From: Nitrospirales bacterium | GTDB taxonomy: Bacteria > Nitrospirota > Nitrospiria > Nitrospirales > UBA8639 | Direction: 5' to 3' | Assembly: GCA_021604005.1 (NCBI GenBank) | Contig: BQIV01000020.1 | Coordinates: 1-64,000 of the forward strand | Length of the DNA stretch: 64,000 nt | Shown here: positions 6,301-64,000 of the stretch, one piece after another | Numbering within the stretch: the stretch's first letter is position 1 | Layout of the letters: each line of letters opens with the position of its first letter | Notes under the pieces: model-generated | The model's input: only the letters and a program-made list of their open reading frames with translations | Databases searched by the model: none | What the model was told of the DNA's origin: nothing | Made by a program: the position numbers and the translations under genes

Positions 6301-8460
6301 ATGACACACATCCCAACACCGGACATACAACAGTCGGACGTTGACCTCTACGACCCCAAGCTCTACCTCAACCGTGAATTAAGCTGGCTTGAATTTAATG
6401 ACCGTGTGCTTGAAGAAGCGGAAGATCAACGTCAACCACTCTTGGAACGAGCGAAGTTTCTCGCCATTTTTTTCAGCAACTTGGACGAATTCTTTATGGT
6501 TCGTATTTCCGGACTTCGCGAACAGGTCACCAGCGGAGTCGTCGAAAGCCCACCGGACGGCATGGCCCCCTCCGATCAATTGAATGCAGTCCGCCAAAAA
6601 CTCCTGGAACAACTCACACGCGTCACACGCTGCTGGAAAAAAGATCTGTTCGATAAACTATATGAAGCCAACATACGCCTCTTTACGTACGATCAGCTGT
6701 CTCCAGCTCAACGGGACACTCTCCGGCAATACTTTTCACAAGAAATATTTCCGGCATTAACCCCTCTGGCCTTTGATCCCTCCCATCCGTTTCCTCACAT
6801 TTCCAACCTCACGCTCAATCTCGCAGTCGTGGCTCGCGACCCGGAGCGCGGAGAATGTTTTGCCAGAGTCAAAGTTCCCAATAACTTTCCTCGCCTCATC
6901 CGCCTACCGCAGGATGACCCGCCCCGCGAGAGCAAAAAGCCTGACGCCCCGGTCACATCTGGAGCCTATCACTTTGTCTGGCTCGAAGATATCATTCGAG
7001 CCAATCTCGACTTGCTGTTTCCCGGCTTAACCATTCAGGCGTCGTACCTGTTTCGCATTACCCGCGATGCCGATTTAGCCATCGAAGAAGACGAGGCGGC
7101 CGATCTGCTGTCGACGATAGAAGAGCAGGTCGACCTGCGACATTTCGGATCCGTCGTGCGAATGGAATTAGACCAGCAAACGCCGGAACCGATTCGAAAT
7201 ATTTTAGTCAGAAACCTGAAGCTCGCCCCCTATCAAGTGTTTACCTATGACTTCCCCCCCGGGCTGTCGAGCTTGATGGAATTACTCCAAATCGACAGAC
7301 CAGAATTAAAATTTACGCCATACCTCAACAGCATCCCCGAACGCCTGGCCAACCGGGACACCATCTTCTCCGCCATTCGCCAAGAAGACCACCTACTCTT
7401 TCATCCCTATGACAACTTTCTTCCTGTGGTCGACTTTGTGCGAGAAGCCGCCAATGATCCACATGTCTTAGCCATTAAACAAACTCTCTATCGTGTCGGG
7501 GCCAATTCCAGCATTGTTGAAGCACTCATGGAAGCCAGGGAAAATGGAAAACAAGTGGCCGTCCTCTTTGAATTGCAAGCTCGCTTTGACGAAGAGAACA
7601 ACATTGAATGGGCGAGAAAATTAGAAGATGAAGGCGTCCACGTCGTCTATGGAGTTCGCGGGTTGAAGACGCATGCGAAACTCTGCATGATCGTGAGAAA
7701 AGATCACGATGGCCTTCGCCGGTATTTACATTTGGGGACCGGGAACTACAATCCGATTACGAGCCGCATCTATACCGACTTCAGCTTCTTTACCTGCGAT
7801 GACGCCATTGGCACCGATGTCTCAGACTTATTTAACGCACTAACCGGCTATTCCCGCAAGGAAACCTACAAGAAGCTCCTGGTGGCCCCCCATGCCATGC
7901 GCAAGGAAATTCTCCGCCGAATCGAACGGGAAATCGACCGCCACCGTCAACATGACGATGGTTATCTTGCATTTAAAATGAATGCGTTGGTTGATCAAGC
8001 CTGTATCCATGCCCTCTACCGTGCCTCGCAAGCCGGCGTGAAAATCGACTTAGTCGTTCGAGGCGTGTGTGGACTTCGGCCCGGAATCCCCGGTGTGAGC
8101 GACACGATTACCGTTACCTCCATCATCGGAAGATTTCTGGAACACTCCCGCCTCTATTATTTTCGAAATGGCGGTCATGATGAACTCTTCCTCGGCAGCG
8201 CCGACCTCATGGCAAGAAATCTCGATGGGCGAGTCGAAGTGCTGTTTCCCATAGAAAGTCAATCATTGAAAGACCTCCTCATTCAGAATGTGCTACGCAT
8301 TCATATCCGAGATAACACCAAGGCCAGACAACTCACGGCCACAGGACACTATACGCGCCTCTCGCCAAAGACGGAAGACGAGGCATTCAATTCACAAGAA
8401 TGGTTTTTGACTCACTGGAAGGATCGCACCATAGTGAACGAGGGAAAAACTCTGTCATAA
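6301..8460 (+). CDS. ppk1: Polyphosphate kinase 1
   Basis: Ppk1 reversibly polymerises the gamma phosphate of ATP into polyphosphate. The 719-residue length is normal. The N-terminal domain begins LYLNRELSWLEFNDRVLEEA and includes FFSNLDEFFMVRISGL. The catalytic PLD-like domains contain RGLKTHAKLCMIVRK, whose His is the expected phosphohistidine, and YLHLGTGNYNPITSRIYTD. Near the end LGSADLMARNLDGRVEVLFP matches the second PLD-like half. It follows the CYTH-CHAD gene by 50 bp and runs convergent with phoU, joining polyphosphate storage to phosphate import in one locus. Confidence 0.97.
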   Translation: MTHIPTPDIQQSDVDLYDPKLYLNRELSWLEFNDRVLEEAEDQRQPLLERAKFLAIFFSNLDEFFMVRISGLREQVTSGVVESPPDGMAPSDQLNAVRQKLLEQLTRVTRCWKKDLFDKLYEANIRLFTYDQLSPAQRDTLRQYFSQEIFPALTPLAFDPSHPFPHISNLTLNLAVVARDPERGECFARVKVPNNFPRLIRLPQDDPPRESKKPDAPVTSGAYHFVWLEDIIRANLDLLFPGLTIQASYLFRITRDADLAIEEDEAADLLSTIEEQVDLRHFGSVVRMELDQQTPEPIRNILVRNLKLAPYQVFTYDFPPGLSSLMELLQIDRPELKFTPYLNSIPERLANRDTIFSAIRQEDHLLFHPYDNFLPVVDFVREAANDPHVLAIKQTLYRVGANSSIVEALMEARENGKQVAVLFELQARFDEENNIEWARKLEDEGVHVVYGVRGLKTHAKLCMIVRKDHDGLRRYLHLGTGNYNPITSRIYTDFSFFTCDDAIGTDVSDLFNALTGYSRKETYKKLLVAPHAMRKEILRRIEREIDRHRQHDDGYLAFKMNALVDQACIHALYRASQAGVKIDLVVRGVCGLRPGIPGVSDTITVTSIIGRFLEHSRLYYFRNGGHDELFLGSADLMARNLDGRVEVLFPIESQSLKDLLIQNVLRIHIRDNTKARQLTATGHYTRLSPKTEDEAFNSQEWFLTHWKDRTIVNEGKTLS

Positions 8461-9240: not shown

Positions 9241-10131
9241 TCAACCGAATCGTCCGGTCACATAATCTTCCGTCCGGCGATCTCCAGGATTGGTAAAGAT
9301 CTTCTTGGTATCATCATACTCGATCAGTTCACCTAATAAAAAGAAACCCGTGTAATCGGACACGCGAGCTGCCTGCTGCATATTGTGCGTCACAATCACA
9401 ATCGTCAGTTGTTCCTTCAGCGAATGCAGCAATTCTTCAATCTTTCCGGTTGATATGGGATCCAAGGCTGAACAGGGTTCATCCATCAGGAGGATATCCG
9501 GATTCACGGCCAATGCACGAGCAATACAGAGCCGTTGCTGTTGTCCACCGGAAATACCAAGCGCACTCGCATGCAAACGATCTTTGACTTCCTCCCACAA
9601 CCCTGCCCCCTGCAGGCTCTTCTCGACAATTTCATCGAGTGCCGACCTGCTGGAAATTTTTTGCAACATTGGACCATACGCAACATTTTGATAAATCGAC
9701 TTGGGGAACGGATTCACTTTTTGAAACACCATACCCACCCGTGTGCGTAAATCCGTGATATCCACCTCAGGCCGATAAATATCCTGCCCGTCAATCAAAA
9801 TTTTCCCCTCGACCCGCGACCCCAACACCAGATCATTTAAGCGGTTCACACACCGCAGCAACGTCGACTTCCCGCAGCCGGATGGTCCAATAAACGCGGT
9901 GACACGATTCTCCGGAATCGTGAGATTCACCTTAAATAACGCTTGGTTGGATCCATAGAAAAAGTTCATCTGTTGAACGTCAATTTTCGGTCTGGAGGAA
10001 CCAGGTATGGTTGCTTCCGACTCCTGCCCCTTTTGCTCTTGCATCATTTTCTGTCCATTACCTACGACCTCGACTTTTAAACGAGACGATGAGTGCGTGG
10101 TTTTCTGAGAAGGCGTGTGAACAATATCCAT
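9241..10131 (-). CDS. pstB: Phosphate ABC transporter ATPase PstB
   Basis: PstB is the ATP-hydrolysing subunit of the high-affinity phosphate importer. Walker [10 protein letters not shown], signature [15 protein letters not shown] and Walker [14 protein letters not shown] are all present, with the switch His in [15 protein letters not shown]. It carries about 70 extra polar N-terminal residues before the ABC domain (starting [13 protein letters not shown]), longer than typical PstB. I chose the ATG at 10131, preceded by AGG at 7-8 bp; the frame is open to 10164, which would overlap pstA. Confidence 0.96.
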
Positions 10132-58188: not shown

Positions 58189-58356
58189 GACCACCTCCTT
58201 CACTGTAAATGTAGAATACCGGTCCAACCGCATGCATGCTGTTTTCATTATCACAGGTTTATTAAGTAATGGGCAAACAGCAACAACTTGCTTAGCGAAT
58301 AACGACATTTGCTACAATTGCTTCAACACCTACCTACAGTCATGAGGTCAATACAT

Positions 58357-59553
58357 ATGTCACCATCACCCGAACGCTGCGCATGTCGAACGCCTCGCTG
58401 GAGGGTTCTGCCATACCTGACCCTGAGCATCGCAACCGTCGCCTGGATTGCCATTTCCGCTACTTTTGCCTTTGGCAACGACGAACATCGTCATACGCCT
58501 TCGCTCATAACGACGAACGGTCACAACGTGCCCGGTGCGACATTTCGCGTGTTTTTCCAACCCGGTAAAGGTGCGGCCGAGGGAATCGTGCTGGATACGT
58601 CCACGGTCGACGATGCCGTGCACACGTTGGTTGATGCCTTGAGCACGATGATGCAACACAGGCATCAGCACCCGAGATTCAATGAGGCCATAGAGAAAAA
58701 TTTTCTGAGCAAGGTAGTCATCGAACCCAAAGTCTTTAATCGTTTCGTCAAAGAATTTCCATTTCTCGTGGCACGGACAAGCCAACCAAAACAGGTCGTC
58801 CTACTCGTCAACGCGTCGAGGCTGAAAGAGGATGGCTATCTCAATCACCCCGACAAGCTCGTCCCACGCCTCGAACGGGAATTTCAATGGGTGCTGAGTA
58901 AGGCAGCCACGAAACCGAAACCTCGAAAGGTTTCCGTACAACGAGACCTCACACATACTCCAATCAAAACAACCAAAGAAATCAAAACACTGTCGGGGAA
59001 GGAACGGGAACAGGTGCTTCAGGCGCTCTTTGAATCGTATCTCGTCACGGTTGATGACTATCACAGCCTCAAGAATCAACCCTTCTTCGACATTGGGACA
59101 ACCAAATTGATGAAACCTACTCATCCTGATTCCACCATCAAGCTCTATGACATTCGGATTCGCGAAGCGCTTCAGATACTCATCCGAGATTCATATTTTC
59201 TTGAACACACCCCCAAAGCCGTCAGAAACTTATTAAATGGACGAATTTGGAATGTGTCGTTTGTGAAGATTGATTCACGTGAGTGGGCCACGCGAACGCG
59301 AGTCGCGCCAAAAGATAAGTCCGTGGTGGTCGGAAAGAATGAGACGTCCATTCAACCGGCCAAAATCTTAGTGAACTACCATCGGAAAGCCATACCGGAA
59401 GATCCGTATTATGCGGACACACAAGACCTGCCCATGGGCGCACTCTCGGCCGAACAACTTGCCAAGGTCATCGCATTGGAAATTGAAAAGAACATTACCG
59501 ACAAATCCATGCGCGGCCATGTCGCACAAGATGAACTCACAGCGCCGGAATAA
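58357..59553 (+). CDS. Exported protein of unknown function, source of the 3'-end repeats
   Basis: I do not recognise this protein of about 398 residues. A signal-like helix (LPYLTLSIATVAWIAISATF) is followed by a soluble domain with GATFRVFFQPGKGAAEGIVL, VVLLVNASRLKEDGYLNHPD, SGKEREQVLQALFESYLVTV and RIREALQILIRDSYFLEHTP. The C-terminus is LEIEKNITDKSMRGHVAQDE and LTAPE. ATGs at 58342 and 58357 are both possible starts. Its last 75 bp recur twice further right, on either side of a toxin-antitoxin module, each time ending in a stop codon. Its 3' end is thus either an integration target or the stub of lost paralogues. Confidence 0.65.
   Translation: MSPSPERCACRTPRWRVLPYLTLSIATVAWIAISATFAFGNDEHRHTPSLITTNGHNVPGATFRVFFQPGKGAAEGIVLDTSTVDDAVHTLVDALSTMMQHRHQHPRFNEAIEKNFLSKVVIEPKVFNRFVKEFPFLVARTSQPKQVVLLVNASRLKEDGYLNHPDKLVPRLEREFQWVLSKAATKPKPRKVSVQRDLTHTPIKTTKEIKTLSGKEREQVLQALFESYLVTVDDYHSLKNQPFFDIGTTKLMKPTHPDSTIKLYDIRIREALQILIRDSYFLEHTPKAVRNLLNGRIWNVSFVKIDSREWATRTRVAPKDKSVVVGKNETSIQPAKILVNYHRKAIPEDPYYADTQDLPMGALSAEQLAKVIALEIEKNITDKSMRGHVAQDELTAPE
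59479..59553 (+). repeat. 3'-end repeat, copy A (inside the intact gene)
   Basis: This is the final 75 bp of the exported-protein gene, encoding EIEKNITDKSMRGHVAQDEL then TAPE and stop. It is the reference for copies B and C. Confidence 0.8.
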
Positions 59554-59684
59554 GAATTATTACAATAGAACGCTACAGTTTAACCGCTCCATGCTCACAC
59601 GGTTGGATTGATACGAATCACGGCCTCTTTCTACGACACAAGTGAACCCATCACCAAGCAGGTTTCCCTCACTGGACCTATTTC

Positions 59685-59698
59685 GTACAAAGATGTAC
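59685..59698. promoter_or_regulatory. Short palindrome before a phd/PIN pair
   Basis: GTACA-AAGA-TGTAC is an inverted repeat 64 bp before the antitoxin start. It is a possible autoregulation site; the arms are short. Confidence 0.4.
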
Positions 59699-59761
59699 AA
59701 TAAAAACACTTAAGAAAATTGTCATACCTTACACCTTTAACCAACCTAGAAGAAACTCACC

Positions 59762-60028
59762 ATGAAACTCCCAATCAGTGAAGCACGACGGCGATTGCCA
59801 GCCTTAGTTCGGAAAGTACGAGAGGACGCTGGAATCCGTGTGCAAATCACACTCCATAACGAAGTCGTGGCGGAATTGCGAGCTGCCCAGCCAGAGCCCC
59901 AGCCAGGAGAAGCAGCGCAGAAGCTCCTTGAGCTCGCGAAGCAGATGCCGAAATCACGAGGCCATAAGACGAACATCTCTTCTCATACCAACGCCTATCT
60001 CTACGGGCGCAAGACCAAAAGGCAATGA
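59762..60028 (+). CDS. Phd/YefM-like antitoxin
   Basis: The 88-residue protein begins MKLPISEARRRLPALVRKVR and continues IRVQITLHNEVVAELRAAQP, a Phd/YefM-like N-terminal fold with an Arg-rich first helix. The Gln/Pro and basic C-terminus (KSRGHKTNISSHTNAYLYGR) is the probable toxin-binding part. The stop overlaps the PIN gene by 4 bp (ATGA). This is the first of three toxin-antitoxin modules in the island. Confidence 0.8.
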   Translation: MKLPISEARRRLPALVRKVREDAGIRVQITLHNEVVAELRAAQPEPQPGEAAQKLLELAKQMPKSRGHKTNISSHTNAYLYGRKTKRQ

Positions 60029-60447
60029 CCCCCTTCCCTCAACGACTATTCTGCGACACATCGTTCTTTTATGCCTGTTTGGACCCCAAGGATCGAAATC
60101 ATGAAATGGCCTTGGCTTTGCTCACAGAAGCCCAGGTCGTCGAAGCAAGGTTTTATACGACCTGGGATATTGTTAGTGAAACAGTCACACTCCTGCGTTA
60201 CCGGAAAAACTATCAGACGGCTAAGCGTTTCCTCGTTGACATCAAACCTTCGTTGCACATTGTCTGGCACGGTGATGGCGTACACCAAGAAGCGGAAGAG
60301 ATCTTTTGCAAATTTGGGAATGAACGGCGACTCTCATTTTGCGATTCGATATCATGTGTTGTGGTCACGACCCTCCTCGACCATATGCCGTGCCTGGCGT
60401 TTGACGAGGACTTTCGAAAACTTGGCCTCACGATCATCTTTCCATAA
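60025..60447 (+). CDS. PIN-domain toxin
   Basis: A 140-residue PIN protein. RLFCDTSFFYACLDPKDRNH carries the first acidic residue, WDIVSETVTLLRYRKNY the conserved Glu, LSFCDSISCVVVTTLLDHMP the third and LAFDEDFRKLGL the last. FCDTSFF with YTTWDIVSETVTLLRYR is typical of this VapC subgroup. It is coupled to the antitoxin just upstream. Confidence 0.88.
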   Translation: MTPFPQRLFCDTSFFYACLDPKDRNHEMALALLTEAQVVEARFYTTWDIVSETVTLLRYRKNYQTAKRFLVDIKPSLHIVWHGDGVHQEAEEIFCKFGNERRLSFCDSISCVVVTTLLDHMPCLAFDEDFRKLGLTIIFP

Positions 60448-60693
60448 CTAATGTGAGCACGTAGCTGACGCCACGCTCGCGGGATAAGACGGTTTGTAGA
60501 GGTGCCCTACTGAAAGAACCCCTTTATAAATGTCAATTTTAATAACCACGGCATGGGCCAGGAAAAAGTATCGGTCGCACACCCTTGCAGGCTTCGGCCA
60601 ATAGAACGGCAATAAACCAAAAGGTTTTGGGTACCGAACAGATCATAAACACAGAATAACAAAACTCAACGCCCCTTCAACTTCTCCTTTTTC

Positions 60694-61122
60694 TCAGTTC
60701 AACATATCCCAATCGGCAAGTAAGCGAATACTTCCCTTCCGGCTAGCTCTTTTGACATAGCTCTTATCAGCGGTCACGTAGACGCCCATAGTCTGAATAG
60801 CAAGCACATGATAACAACTATCGTAGAATGTTACGCCTTTGACTTCCTCCATGAGCTTCAACACAGCTTGGCAGTAGGTGGACGTGAGGGCAACTTCTGT
60901 CAGCTCATAGTCCAATAGTGCTTTCATGAGTTCACTTGCTAGTTGGGGCTGCTTCAGACCAAGAACATTACCGACTTCATATTTCCACAATGTGGGGACT
61001 TGTAACTCAAGCTCACCTGCGACGAACGCGCTTTGTAAATCGAGAGCCGTCGAGACTTCGACCCCCTCCCCCTTTTCGAGCACCCACTTAAGAATGACGG
61101 AGGCATCAGGAACAATGATCAT
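60694..61122 (-). CDS. vapC: PIN-domain toxin
   Basis: A 142-residue PIN protein on the minus strand, MIIVPDASVILKWVLEKGEG, with Asp6 and then Glu in VPTLWKYEVGNVLGLKQPQL. GVTFYDSCYHVLAIQTMGVY holds the third acidic residue and VTADKSYVKRASRKGSIRLL the last. The order acid-Ser-Val near the start is typical of VapC proteins. It overlaps the antitoxin gene upstream by 4 bp. Confidence 0.9.
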   Translation of the reverse strand: MIIVPDASVILKWVLEKGEGVEVSTALDLQSAFVAGELELQVPTLWKYEVGNVLGLKQPQLASELMKALLDYELTEVALTSTYCQAVLKLMEEVKGVTFYDSCYHVLAIQTMGVYVTADKSYVKRASRKGSIRLLADWDMLN

Positions 61123-61352
61123 GAGGCTGACCTGGAACGATCTTCTCTGACCGCCTCCAGGATCTCGCGTCCCGTAAGCGTCGCACTTCGTTTGCGTAAT
61201 TGCGTGATCCGGACTGCTGCCAACTGACGTTTCCGATGCAAGAGCTCTTTACGCAAGGCCTCATTAATGACATCGCTTCGTTTTCTTGCAGGAATCAATT
61301 TCAACAAATCTTCATGCACGTCGTCTTGAAGAGATACATTCACCTTCCCCAT
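61119..61352 (-). CDS. Ribbon-helix-helix antitoxin
   Basis: The 77-residue protein starts MGKVNVSLQDDVHEDLLKLI and continues PARKRSDVINEALRKELLHR, a ribbon-helix-helix DNA-binding domain (ParD or VapB type). The Arg-rich C-terminal helix, with LTGREILEAVREDRSRS, contacts the toxin. AGGAGGAG stands a few bases before the start. With the PIN gene it forms the only leftward module of the island. Confidence 0.87.
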   Translation of the reverse strand: MGKVNVSLQDDVHEDLLKLIPARKRSDVINEALRKELLHRKRQLAAVRITQLRKRSATLTGREILEAVREDRSRSAS

Positions 61353-61989
61353 ACCAGACTCCTCCTGTGCATTATCGCGAATTCAATTCATTTCCAGTGA
61401 TGACCTTGGCGACGATTGTCCCGTAACCCTACACATCCCCTTACGACGCAACTGACTGTGAATGCCGTTCTGCGCCTGAGAGGGTAACTCAAAGTCGCCA
61501 AGACAGCGTCATACTAGACCTCAGACATCGGAAATTATGTAAAACGGCTATAACATCGCAATTGCTCAAGACTTTCATAGTAATCCAACATAGACATTTA
61601 GTCAAGACACATAAACTAGGCAGATATAATAAAAACTCAAAGTAGAAACTGGGTAAATCAGCTTGCACAGAAACTCTTAATCACCAATGTATACTCTTTT
61701 TTGAGTTTCAAAAACTTTATAGATTGGAGAGAGAGCTCCTAGAGACCTAGAGCTCAACGACTAGAAATCGAAAAAAACATCACCGACAAGCCAATGCGCA
61801 GCCACGTCGCCCAAGACGAGCAGTCGGCGCCGAAAGAAGAATGATTGGGGCAGTTAATCTTGCCTCTCTGCACTCATTACTCATGCTGTAGTCTGCGGTT
61901 GAGTCCAGAAGTATCTATGGTCTCCTTAAAGATTCAGTACCGACATCGATCCTGTTGTCATTCTTTAATTGGAAAGGTACTATAGAGCC
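61353..61989. other. Gap containing repeat copy B
   Basis: About 640 bp without an intact gene. Bases 61764-61844 are a copy of the 3' end of the exported-protein gene; the AT-rich part at 61550-61740 shows nothing I recognise. Confidence 0.5.
61764..61844 (+). repeat. 3'-end repeat, copy B
   Basis: Codons spell EIEKNITDKPMRSHVAQDEQ then SAPKEE and TGA, matching the last 25 codons of the gene at 58.4-59.6 kb (copy A). Resemblance begins within a codon or two of EIEK and ends at the stop. Upstream text is not similar, so this is not a truncated full-length copy in plain view. Confidence 0.78.
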
Positions 61990-62214
61990 ATGGACTACAC
62001 TGACATTATCACTATTGAGCCCGGGAAACGTAGCGGAAAACCCTGCATCAGAGGGATGCGGATCACAGTATCGGATGTGCTGGAATATCTGGCATCAGGG
62101 ATGACGGAAGATGAAATTATCAGCGACTTTCCTGAACTCACGAAACGAGACATCCACGCCTGCCTTTCATTTGCTGCAGACCGTGAAAAAAAGCTTTCCG
62201 TGGCTAACGTATGA
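61990..62214 (+). CDS. DUF433 antitoxin
   Basis: A DUF433 protein of 74 residues: MDYTDIITIEPGKRSGKPCI, RGMRITVSDVLEYLASGMTE, DEIISDFPELTKRDIHACLS. The family pattern GKPCIRG and DILEYLASG marks a helix-turn-helix antitoxin paired with DUF5615 toxins. I chose the ATG at 61990, which begins the conserved part; the frame is open to 61969. It overlaps the toxin gene by 4 bp. Copies B and C of the 3'-end repeat stand on either side of the pair. Confidence 0.9.
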   Translation: MDYTDIITIEPGKRSGKPCIRGMRITVSDVLEYLASGMTEDEIISDFPELTKRDIHACLSFAADREKKLSVANV

Positions 62215-62501
62215 AACTGGTTCTAGACCAGAACCTTTCGTACAAACTTGTCCTCAGTCTTGATCTACAATACCCTGGTTCGAAGCATGTAAAAGATTTA
62301 GGGCTGACCGGTGACGACGATGAGGCAATTTGGAAATTTGCCTCAGATTACCAATTCGCCATTGTGTCCAAGGACTCCGACTTCCTGCACCGAAGTCTCC
62401 TCCTCGGTCATCCACCAAAAGTCATTCAATTGCGAATAGGGAACTGCTCTACACGGTATATCCAGGATCTATTCATCCGAGAAGAACCCGTCATCAAGTA
62501 A
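62211..62501 (+). CDS. DUF5615 PIN-like toxin
   Basis: A PIN-like DUF5615 protein of 96 residues: MKLVLDQNLSYKLVLSLDLQ, DDDEAIWKFASDYQFAIVSK, DSDFLHRSLLLGHPPKVIQL and RIGNCSTRYIQDLF. Acidic residues Asp6 in VLDQN and Asp in SKDSDF fit the PIN-like active site. It is the presumed toxin of the DUF433 pair. An inactive relative with the same gene order is at 40.0-40.4 kb. Confidence 0.9.
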   Translation: MKLVLDQNLSYKLVLSLDLQYPGSKHVKDLGLTGDDDEAIWKFASDYQFAIVSKDSDFLHRSLLLGHPPKVIQLRIGNCSTRYIQDLFIREEPVIK

Positions 62502-62561
62502 TTTCTGAGCAACCCAAATGAGGCTCTGCTCGTTATTACCTAAAAAAAGTTATTCGGAGTT

Positions 62562-62632
62562 ATTGAAAAAACATCACCGGCAAGTCAATGCGTAGCCCTG
62601 TCGCTCGAGACGAGCAATCGGCGCCGCAATAG
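62562..62632 (+). repeat. 3'-end repeat, copy C
   Basis: With one base restored in the A run near 62566-62571, the codons read NITGKSMRSPVARDEQSAPQ and TAG. The copy is closer to B than to A (for example GACGAGCA.TCGGCGCCG in both B and C). It lies 60 bp after the toxin stop, so B and C are direct repeats about 800 bp apart around one module. Confidence 0.75.
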
Positions 62633-62773
62633 GTGACCCTGCGCCAGCCATACCTACATCTGATATACGGGGAAAATTCTCGACAATCACGGCGACTGAC
62701 AGCAGGCAAGGGATAAAGCATAAATTCGAGTCTGACCCCTAAATTAAGAGCATGCCTTGCATCTAGTAGAATG

Positions 62774-62800
62774 TAGTACTAACCTACACTGGCAGTACTA
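62774..62800. promoter_or_regulatory. Inverted repeat before the AbrB-type antitoxin
   Basis: TAGTACT (62774-62780) and AGTACTA (62794-62800) are exact inverted arms 17 bp before the antitoxin ATG. It is a likely operator of the former module. Confidence 0.55.
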
Positions 62801-62816
62801 ATTCATGGAGGTAGGA

Positions 62817-62990
62817 ATGTCAACATCAACTATTACCCGAAAAGGTCAAGCCACCATACCAAAGGATATTCGAAACCGATTGGATGTCAAGAGGGTGATA
62901 CAGTGTTGTTTGTCATGCGAGGCGAAGAAGTGGTCCTGAAAGTGATTCACGGAACGATTCTCGATTTGAAGGGTTCAATTAAAGCCACCG
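62817..62990 (+). pseudogene. Broken AbrB/MazE-type antitoxin gene
   Basis: A GGAGG-led ATG opens MSTSTITRKGQATIPKDIRN and RLDV, the SpoVT-AbrB swapped-hairpin domain. One base appears missing at about 62893-62900, because the family pattern goes on in the next frame: EGDTVLFVMRGEEVVLKVIH and GTILDLKGSIKA. The C-terminal part runs into an unrelated hsdR fragment near 62990. The original would be a PIN or MazF partner antitoxin; no toxin gene follows. Confidence 0.74.
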
Positions 62991-64000
62991 AGTATCAGGA
63001 ACACCTCTTTTTCCGTGCACCAGGGCTTTGGTTTGCTGGATTCCAATAGCCGGGTACCACGGCCGATCATTTGCCAGAATTTGGTGTAGGAGTAGACTGG
63101 CTTGGCAAACACGAGGTTGACGATTTCGCGCACGTCGATACCGGTGTCGAGCATATCCACGCTGATGGCGACTCGCGGCATATCATTGTTGGTGAACTGA
63201 TCCAACAGGCCACCCTTGCCACAGACGCGCGAGTCGTCGGAGACCAAGACCTTAGCTAACTCGCCGTTGTACTGCGGATAGAGTTTGTCAAAAATCTCCT
63301 CGATGCGTCGGGCATGGGCCATGGACGAACAAAAAAAGATGGTTTTACCTGGAAGGACGCCGTCGTGGTCTTTGATGCACTCTTCCATGAATTCTTTGAC
63401 GATGAGGGCGTTCGTGCCCTTGTTGATCACTTGCTTTTCTAGCTGGGAGCCTTCGAAGTTGATCTCTTCGATTTCCTTGCCTTCGAGCAGCAGTTTTTTC
63501 TGGTCTTCCAACGAGATCGTGCGCTTCCTGATGCCTTCTATTTGAAACTTGGTCTGAATTTTCATGACCTGAAAGGTGCAGAGGTAGGGCGGCACATTGT
63601 TGATGGCCTCTTCGAAGGTATAGGCAAACGTGGGGATGCCATCTTCGCAGTAGAATAACTGAAAGGTGTTATGGTCGATGATATCGGTGGGCGTGGCCGT
63701 CAGACCCAACGTGATAGTCTTAAAATAGTTCAGCACTTCTTTGTACGTGTTGTAAATGGACCGGTGGCTTTCGTCGACCACGATGAAATCGAAAAAGTGC
63801 GGCGAGGTGTTGCGACTCGTCCCGGATGATATTGAGCATGGTGGGATAGGTCGAGATGTAGATGCGGCGGTCCTTGGCGATGAGTTTTTCACCGACGTTG
63901 GGCCAGCGCGGCTCGTAGGGTAAATGCTCCTTGAAGGCGCCGAGTGCCTGTTCGCGCAGGGCAATTCGGTCGACTAGAAACAGCACTTTCTCCGCATGAC
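62990..64000 (-). pseudogene. hsdR: Broken type I restriction enzyme R-subunit gene
   Basis: Helicase text of an EcoEI-type HsdR is read leftward from the window edge. VLFLVDRIALREQALGAFKE-type residues and RRIYISTYPTMLNIIRDE lie in one frame; HFFDFIVVDESHRSIYNTYK (DEAH-like box), TLGLTATPTD, KTIFFCSSMAHARRIEEIFD and TKFWQMIGRGTRLL lie in another. The frame change is near 63810-63825. The 3' end is lost at about 62990, after EKEVFLIL, where it meets the broken AbrB gene. The 5' part, including the nuclease domain, is outside the window. No hsdM or hsdS is seen. Confidence 0.85.

Follow-up and report, generated by a model that had tools for sequence, protein, structure and literature searches.

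Toxin-antitoxin modules bounded by duplicated host gene ends in a Nitrospirales bacterium and its relatives

The stretch of DNA analysed here (the window) comprises 64,000 nucleotides of contig C20 in the 4.7-Mb draft genome of a nitrifier-related Nitrospirales bacterium (G000, hereafter the host). Behind an intact host gene, referred to as gene A, it carries toxin-antitoxin (TA) modules followed by short stubs that repeat the end of that gene. The arrangement recurs at unrelated genes, the end of gene A is found in single copy with no module behind it in related genomes, and the contigs concerned in the host genus gave no match to the tyrosine or serine recombinase families. To our knowledge, the means by which chromosomal TA modules spread in the absence of transposases have yet to be established; these observations suggest that copying or a homology-based process, rather than an integrase of their own, brings them in behind genes. 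Our preferred explanation, held with moderate confidence, is that the modules came to lie behind or between host genes through an event that duplicated some 65-165 bp of the gene boundary, most likely without a dedicated recombinase; the DNA route and the recombination step are the parts of it that we infer.

Gene A, its stubs and their cargo

Gene A (58348..59553, + strand, 401 aa) is an open reading frame (ORF) that matched no Pfam or NCBIfam family and was detected in 45 of the 97 genomes searched, the host counted; its start codon is uncertain, a TTG at 58309 being the alternative. Behind it stand, in order, its own tail (copy A), a Phd-like/PIN module, a VapB-like/PIN module in the opposite orientation, stub B, a DUF433/DUF5615 pair and stub C. 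Copy A (59465..59561, + strand) comprises the last ~90 bp of the gene plus 8 bp beyond the stop, its extent being that matched by copy B; the stubs, both on the + strand, are copy B (61751..61846, core 61772-61835) and copy C (62560..62632, core 62566-62629). A repeat search placed the three in register at 59487-59550, 61772-61835 and 62566-62629. The gapped alignment of A with B covered 97 bp (59465-59561 with 61751-61846) and passed the gene A stop by 8 bp, and seven of the eight bases directly after the stop codon are identical in the two copies (chance probability 4e-4). An initial annotation, made from the sequence alone, had described three copies of the gene end, each closing with a stop codon. 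All three copies were confirmed; the gene A stop codon of copy B, however, is mutated to GAA, and its frame closes two codons downstream. The same annotation was borne out in that B is closer to C (86% identity) than to the intact end (77%). A genome-wide search for the gene end, which it had also proposed, returned only B and C besides the intact end in the host: with the intact end as a 161-bp query the sole match was its own locus, and B and C as queries matched each other, all remaining matches having E values of at least 0.4. The ends of gene A are conserved across relatives rather than forming a variable C-terminal domain.

The cargo is likewise as first described, with two modules between A and B and one between B and C. 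In the first (TA1), a Phd/YefM-like antitoxin (59762..60028, + strand; a weak match, E 5e-4, below the Pfam cut-off) overlaps by 4 bp a PIN-domain toxin (60025..60447, + strand; PF01850, E 7.5e-8). The second, vapBC2, consists of a PIN-domain toxin (60694..61122, - strand), with a PIN match just under the cut-off, and a VapB-like antitoxin (61119..61352, - strand) that matched no family and owes its assignment to its position and size. Over 667 bp, vapBC2 is 89% identical to DNA on contig C91 of G004, a same-genus relative. Between B and C, Pfam matches identified a DUF433 antitoxin-like protein (61993..62214, + strand; PF04255, E 9.7e-26) and a DUF5615 toxin-like protein (62211..62501, + strand; PF18480, E 3.9e-28). 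None of the six TA proteins of the window matched a PADLOC model, and a search for plasmid relatives of the unit gave no match.

In G001 and G002, two genomes of the host's genus, the gap between the end of gene A and a convergent VOC-family gene is 10 and 7 bp, respectively, and a genome-wide tail search found one gene A tail in each; these are therefore empty sites, of the kind that the initial annotation had named as support for insertion. In G003, likewise of the same genus, gene A is followed by a segment of ~110 bp (stretch D), a PIN remnant and the VOC gene. In G004, where gene A is split over two contigs, the order is gene A, D, vapBC2, a tail stub (1273-1335), HNH, AAA, HsdS, HsdM, HsdR and VOC (the HNH-type, AAA, HsdR and VOC names are backed by family matches; HsdS and HsdM were read by eye). 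This genome thus carries a VapBC module of its own, vapBC2, between the gene A end and a stub, and the contents of the interval between gene A and VOC in the relatives mark it as a hot spot for TA and restriction genes. Contig C13 of G003 carries vapBC2 behind an ATP-grasp gene, away from gene A, together with an intact MazE/PIN module, HNH/Hsd homologues and a stub of gene A, so that either the stub moved along with its island or the whole island was copied to this place.

When a profile of the tail was searched against the 97 genomes, six rows with E < 0.001 were obtained beyond intact or contig-split genes: B and C in the host, and one each on G004:C91, G003:C13, G024:C8 and G040:C243. Of 36 weaker rows, six were inspected and all were noise-like. 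The tail remnant of G024 (about 9516-9632 of stretch L066) lies in a setting unlike that of four same-family loci compared, and no intact gene A was found in that genome. The gene A tail as a mobile unit in itself was considered and rejected after this search.

Several further features adjoin these units. The dispersed repeats R1 (60451..60508, 58 bp, no strand assigned; many copies in the host genome) and R2 (61371..61553, ~180 bp, no strand assigned; many partial copies in G003 and G004, some in the host) lie at the borders of vapBC2. The DUF5615 gene stops early relative to its G001 homologue, which extends for 14 residues resembling the DNA at 62501-62543 and is itself interrupted further upstream. 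Stretch D (62633..62745, + strand) adjoins copy C in the host but gene A itself in G003 and G004. It ends in a dispersed motif, TTCGAGTCTGACCC, at 62725-62738, which occurs at 39 exact places in nine of 59 genomes, as against one for a reversed-order control, and in places forms close inverted pairs; we take it to resemble an element of the repetitive extragenic palindromic (REP) type. The homology of D between genomes breaks off at this motif, and TA remnants start there. Beyond it lie the remnant of an AbrB/MazE-PIN module (62738..62992, + strand; 78% over 256 bp to the intact module on G003:C13) and a broken remnant of HsdR, a type I restriction subunit (62983..64000, - strand), which runs beyond the window and whose G004 homologue matches REase_I.

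The same architecture at unrelated genes

Three further cases were found in the host. At ispH, a CopG/PIN and a MazE/PIN module lie between the gene end and a stub 75% identical to it. Behind the PCP_red gene, a helix-turn-helix protein and a weak match to the DUF6036 nucleotidyltransferases, a cargo that we count as TA-like by analogy, are followed by a stub of 74% identity. Between btuB and cobB, a MazE/MazF module is enclosed by duplicated copies of the boundary (68% identity), each running from the last part of btuB into the beginning of cobB; since the segment spans the junction and both genes are intact, an intact gene is paired on either side with a stub of its neighbour. A further case comes from G041, a member of another genus of the family: here ppk2 is followed by a YefM/YoeB-type pair and then by a stub that repeats the final 106 bp of the gene at 97% identity. 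In G002, a pair encoding a YCII protein and an ECF sigma factor separates an ATP-grasp gene from a second copy (91%) of its last 163 bp; a tail profile searched in 50 genomes found a second copy as a short stub only in G002, the second matches in G012 and G017 falling within full-length ORFs. In G001, a YefM/ParE-type module is preceded by a stub that repeats the end of its own toxin gene. Across loci, the duplicated segment measures about 65-165 bp.

Two side observations were made. The ATP-grasp gene carries inserts in both G002 and G003, and in the host (G000:C2, minus strand) an AbrB/PIN-like pair and a CRISPR-like array, both read by eye, lie behind it. An IscB-type gene (RRXRR + HNH) at ~89.1-90.4 kb of G000:C1 (9081-10412 of L213) lies between 74-bp direct repeats of 74% identity; a 75%-identical homologue is located ~10 kb upstream, and no transposase was noticed by eye among the neighbouring ORFs.

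Spaced direct repeats were also collected by scanning. The first scan covered 1,632,600 bases, 842,718 of them from the host (C20 included) and the rest from G001, G002 and G003; contigs were picked by size, except for C20, C2b and the G001 stretches, whose loci were already known. After near-duplicates had been merged it yielded 42 repeats, as against five rows in the reversed sequence (same blastn settings, 1.63 Mb). In seven of the 42 rows, one copy lay at the stop end of an ORF of at least 100 aa and the other in no such ORF. Four of these seven enclosed TA or TA-like cargo (gene A, ispH, PCP_red and the G001 toxin end); in the other three (G000C2b 63868, G002C58 280333 and G003C1 13586) the cargo was either not of the TA type or not examined, the copies at G002C58 280333 being 8 kb apart and the second lying in a doubtful ORF. 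The btuB/cobB, IscB and B/C repeats were further rows among the 42. A second scan, of 626,807 bases in 37 stretches partly overlapping the first, gave 21 rows, of which those of ppk2, the G002 ATP-grasp gene and gene A of G004 were used. An excess of TA cargo between repeats is suggested rather than measured, because some scan rows were left without follow-up. Other rows of the second scan, in L062 (4780-6739), L162 (8391-11710) and L061 (7374-9526), enclose single genes or small gene groups.

Origin of the stubs and route of insertion

The preferred explanation would leave the host gene intact, with a stub of its end beyond the insert. More than one such event at gene A would have produced the series of tail A, TA1 and vapBC2, stub B, DUF433/DUF5615 and stub C. 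The duplication could arise when DNA already carrying a gene end plus module recombines through that end in a RecA-type reaction, the donor being a linear fragment anchored on one side or a circle. It could also arise by copying with template switching that returns ~100 bp upstream of the point of departure. Once a stub exists, the direct repeats might serve as homology arms for further module exchange. Selection probably contributes: in junctions almost without spacer, only insertions that duplicate the boundary would keep both genes. Homology-anchored import and template switching are not separable here, and we infer that recombinase-free boundary duplication, in either form, is the best-supported class. 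The same architecture at the unrelated genes ispH, PCP_red, btuB/cobB and ppk2 argues for it, as does the junction-spanning repeat of btuB/cobB with both its genes intact. The single-copy sites of G001 and G002 also count in its favour, as does the lack of PF00589 or PF00239 matches on the contigs listed below, together with the site patterns of B and C, which point to a sister lineage.

Those patterns were read at informative sites. In the body of gene A, tail excluded, the host groups with G003 at 136 sites and with G004 at 68. Copy A shows a gene-like pattern (5:3 for G003:G004), whereas the ratio is 1:6 in copy B (Fisher p 0.008) and 1:7 in copy C (p 0.003); in stretch D it is 10:11 (p 0.095). 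In trees, B and C group with the gene end and the stub of G004. Trees joining B and C to the host's own tail, as a local duplication of that tail would require, were rejected by the approximately unbiased (AU) test (p 0.028) but not by the Shimodaira-Hasegawa (SH) test (p 0.068); the same was true of a tree with the four stubs as one clade (0.019 and 0.222, respectively). These tests of stub origin cover only 63 bp, and B and C are not independent observations. On this comparison of sequences, B and C are unlikely to have been copied recently from the host's own end and would be either imported or older than the species split. The ppk2 stub of G041, by contrast, looks local.

Several points weigh against boundary duplication as the general explanation. 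Among 14 TA-like modules found with search seeds, five had flank-to-flank alignment scores of at least 17 (49, 46, 42, 32 and 17), 17 being the 99th percentile of 1,500 random intervals, a few of which scored far higher (up to 159); all five had themselves supplied seeds and three had been found through their repeats, so that five of 14 is no estimate of frequency. The other nine, in scanned DNA, had no detectable repeat. In G040, decay in place has reduced gene A to its tail (7699-7776 of stretch L155), the neighbours being as in G018, so that tails can persist without any insertion. The single ppk2 end of G044 (91% identical to the G041 gene and 89% to the G041 stub) has a different neighbourhood and is thus not a clean empty site. 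Such repeats also enclose cargo other than TA modules, namely the YCII/ECF sigma pair of G002 and the IscB-type gene of the host. The ppk2 and ATP-grasp repeats end at the stop codon, which neither homologous recombination nor template switching alone explains. The four gene A stubs compared start within ~12 bp of one another, ~66-78 bp before the stop, which is unexpected of a random joint unless they share descent; this near-constant edge suits a unit with fixed ends, as do the seven of eight bases that A and B share beyond their stops.

The foremost alternative is a long target-site duplication made within the genome by break repair or template switching, in which replication leaves the gene end, copies the module and returns ~100 bp upstream. 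It is possible, and the youngest case, ppk2 in G041, whose stub is nearly identical to its own gene end, would fit it, as would the variable repeat length and the btuB/cobB repeat covering parts of both neighbours. We nevertheless doubt it as the whole account: the gene A stubs resemble a sister lineage, so that import or an event before the split would be needed at least there, and their edges are near-constant.

Site-specific integration, which the initial annotation had put forward in its attL/attR form, is in our judgement unlikely. Small non-autonomous islands carrying a replacement gene 3′ end would have been inserted by a tyrosine or serine recombinase acting in trans or since lost, A and B/C being attL/attR-like. 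The direct repeats at the borders, the intact gene, the single-copy sites and the stacking of units behind one gene agree with this, as do the constant stub edge, the bases shared after the stop and the presence of integrase matches elsewhere in the genomes, including G000:C1, the contig of the IscB case. Against it, no PF00589 or PF00239 match was found on the draft contigs G000:C20, G003:C3, G003:C13, G004:C91 (only 10.9 kb) and G002:C12, nor on G000:C2, C3 and C5, G041 not having been searched; in line with the annotation's remark that the units have no recombinase of their own, none was recognised among the unit proteins scanned. The insertions share no constant core sequence, their targets being the ends of unrelated genes and near-constant stub edges occurring at gene A alone. 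The unrelated targets and the missing recombinase match make a single fixed attachment site unlikely. In the classical attL/attR form the reading is further weakened by the differing repeat lengths (~64-163 bp), by the btuB/cobB repeat that extends into the next gene and by the apparent origin of B and C in a sister lineage or before the species split. Integron-type folding of the tails was considered and rejected, no attC-like fold being detected on either strand of seven tails (z -1.9 to 0.9).

It is very improbable that the stubs are what deletion has left of tandem paralogues of each host gene, with TA modules inserted independently. The in-place decay of gene A in G040 lends itself to this reading, and the G001 module with its own toxin tail upstream fits tandem decay; but none of the 45 genomes bearing gene A, among the 97 searched, has two intact neighbouring copies, the finding that the initial annotation had named as refuting insertion, and no tandem full-length ATP-grasp gene was found in five genomes of the genus. 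Chance or an assembly artefact is hardly credible even though the host and most relatives are draft assemblies, given the reversed-sequence control, the homologous stubs that G003 and G004 carry on separate contigs, and pairwise differences of 14-27% among copies A, B and C, which are therefore not assembly duplicates.

Tentatively, boundary duplication may represent a general, recombinase-independent route of TA colonisation, in which keeping both neighbours functional would admit modules to junctions almost without spacer and the repeats would provide homology arms by which modules could be stacked and exchanged between species. If so, compact gene junctions can take up modules without losing either gene. 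If the footprint, a decayed neighbour-gene end beyond a module, is recognisable, insertion sites, dates and donors might be read by sequence alone, and ppk2, with its nearly identical stub, makes the insertion step testable in young insertions. Among the titles and abstract openings returned by searches of open-access literature, Nitrospira included, none described TA modules bounded by duplicated host gene ends.

Comparison with known systems

Integrative elements that enter the 3′ ends of genes or tRNAs leave the gene end at both borders (attL/attR) and the gene intact. The loci described here resemble them in these two respects and in the single-copy sites of relatives, and differ in that no integrase was found on the contigs named above, the cargo measures ~0.6-2 kb, the targets are unrelated and the repeat length varies. 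Integron gene cassettes are stacked small units in which TA pairs are common. Stacked small units with TA pairs are present here as well, without attC-like folding of the repeats or a tyrosine recombinase match on the contig. The pdif sites of Acinetobacter plasmids are 28-bp Xer sites. The modules between them are reported likewise to shuffle TA pairs as small units between short repeated sites, with a recombinase supplied by the host; the present repeats, in contrast, are host coding ends of 65-165 bp that differ at each locus. A classical transposon would bring a transposase and a short target duplication of fixed length; here no transposase was seen among the nine window proteins scanned, a scan not aimed at transposase families, and the repeats range from 64 to 163 bp.

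The nearest parallels are Rhs loci and the effector-immunity arrays of type VI secretion systems (T6SS). Displaced Rhs tips are described as lying downstream of their anchor, and homologous recombination with a circular intermediate is proposed (PMC2935791); for the T6SS arrays homology-facilitated illegitimate recombination without specific integration sites is proposed (PMC5361080). This anchored-displacement model supports boundary duplication without a dedicated recombinase. Displacement arrays and homology-facilitated illegitimate recombination are already known, and the footprint described here would be a variant of them. The likeness lies in a conserved upstream anchor gene, toxin-type modules added behind it and remnants of its end downstream. 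In the Rhs and T6SS cases the displaced end is the anchor's variable tip or an effector gene, whereas here several ordinary conserved anchors keep their own end and only 65-165 bp are duplicated.

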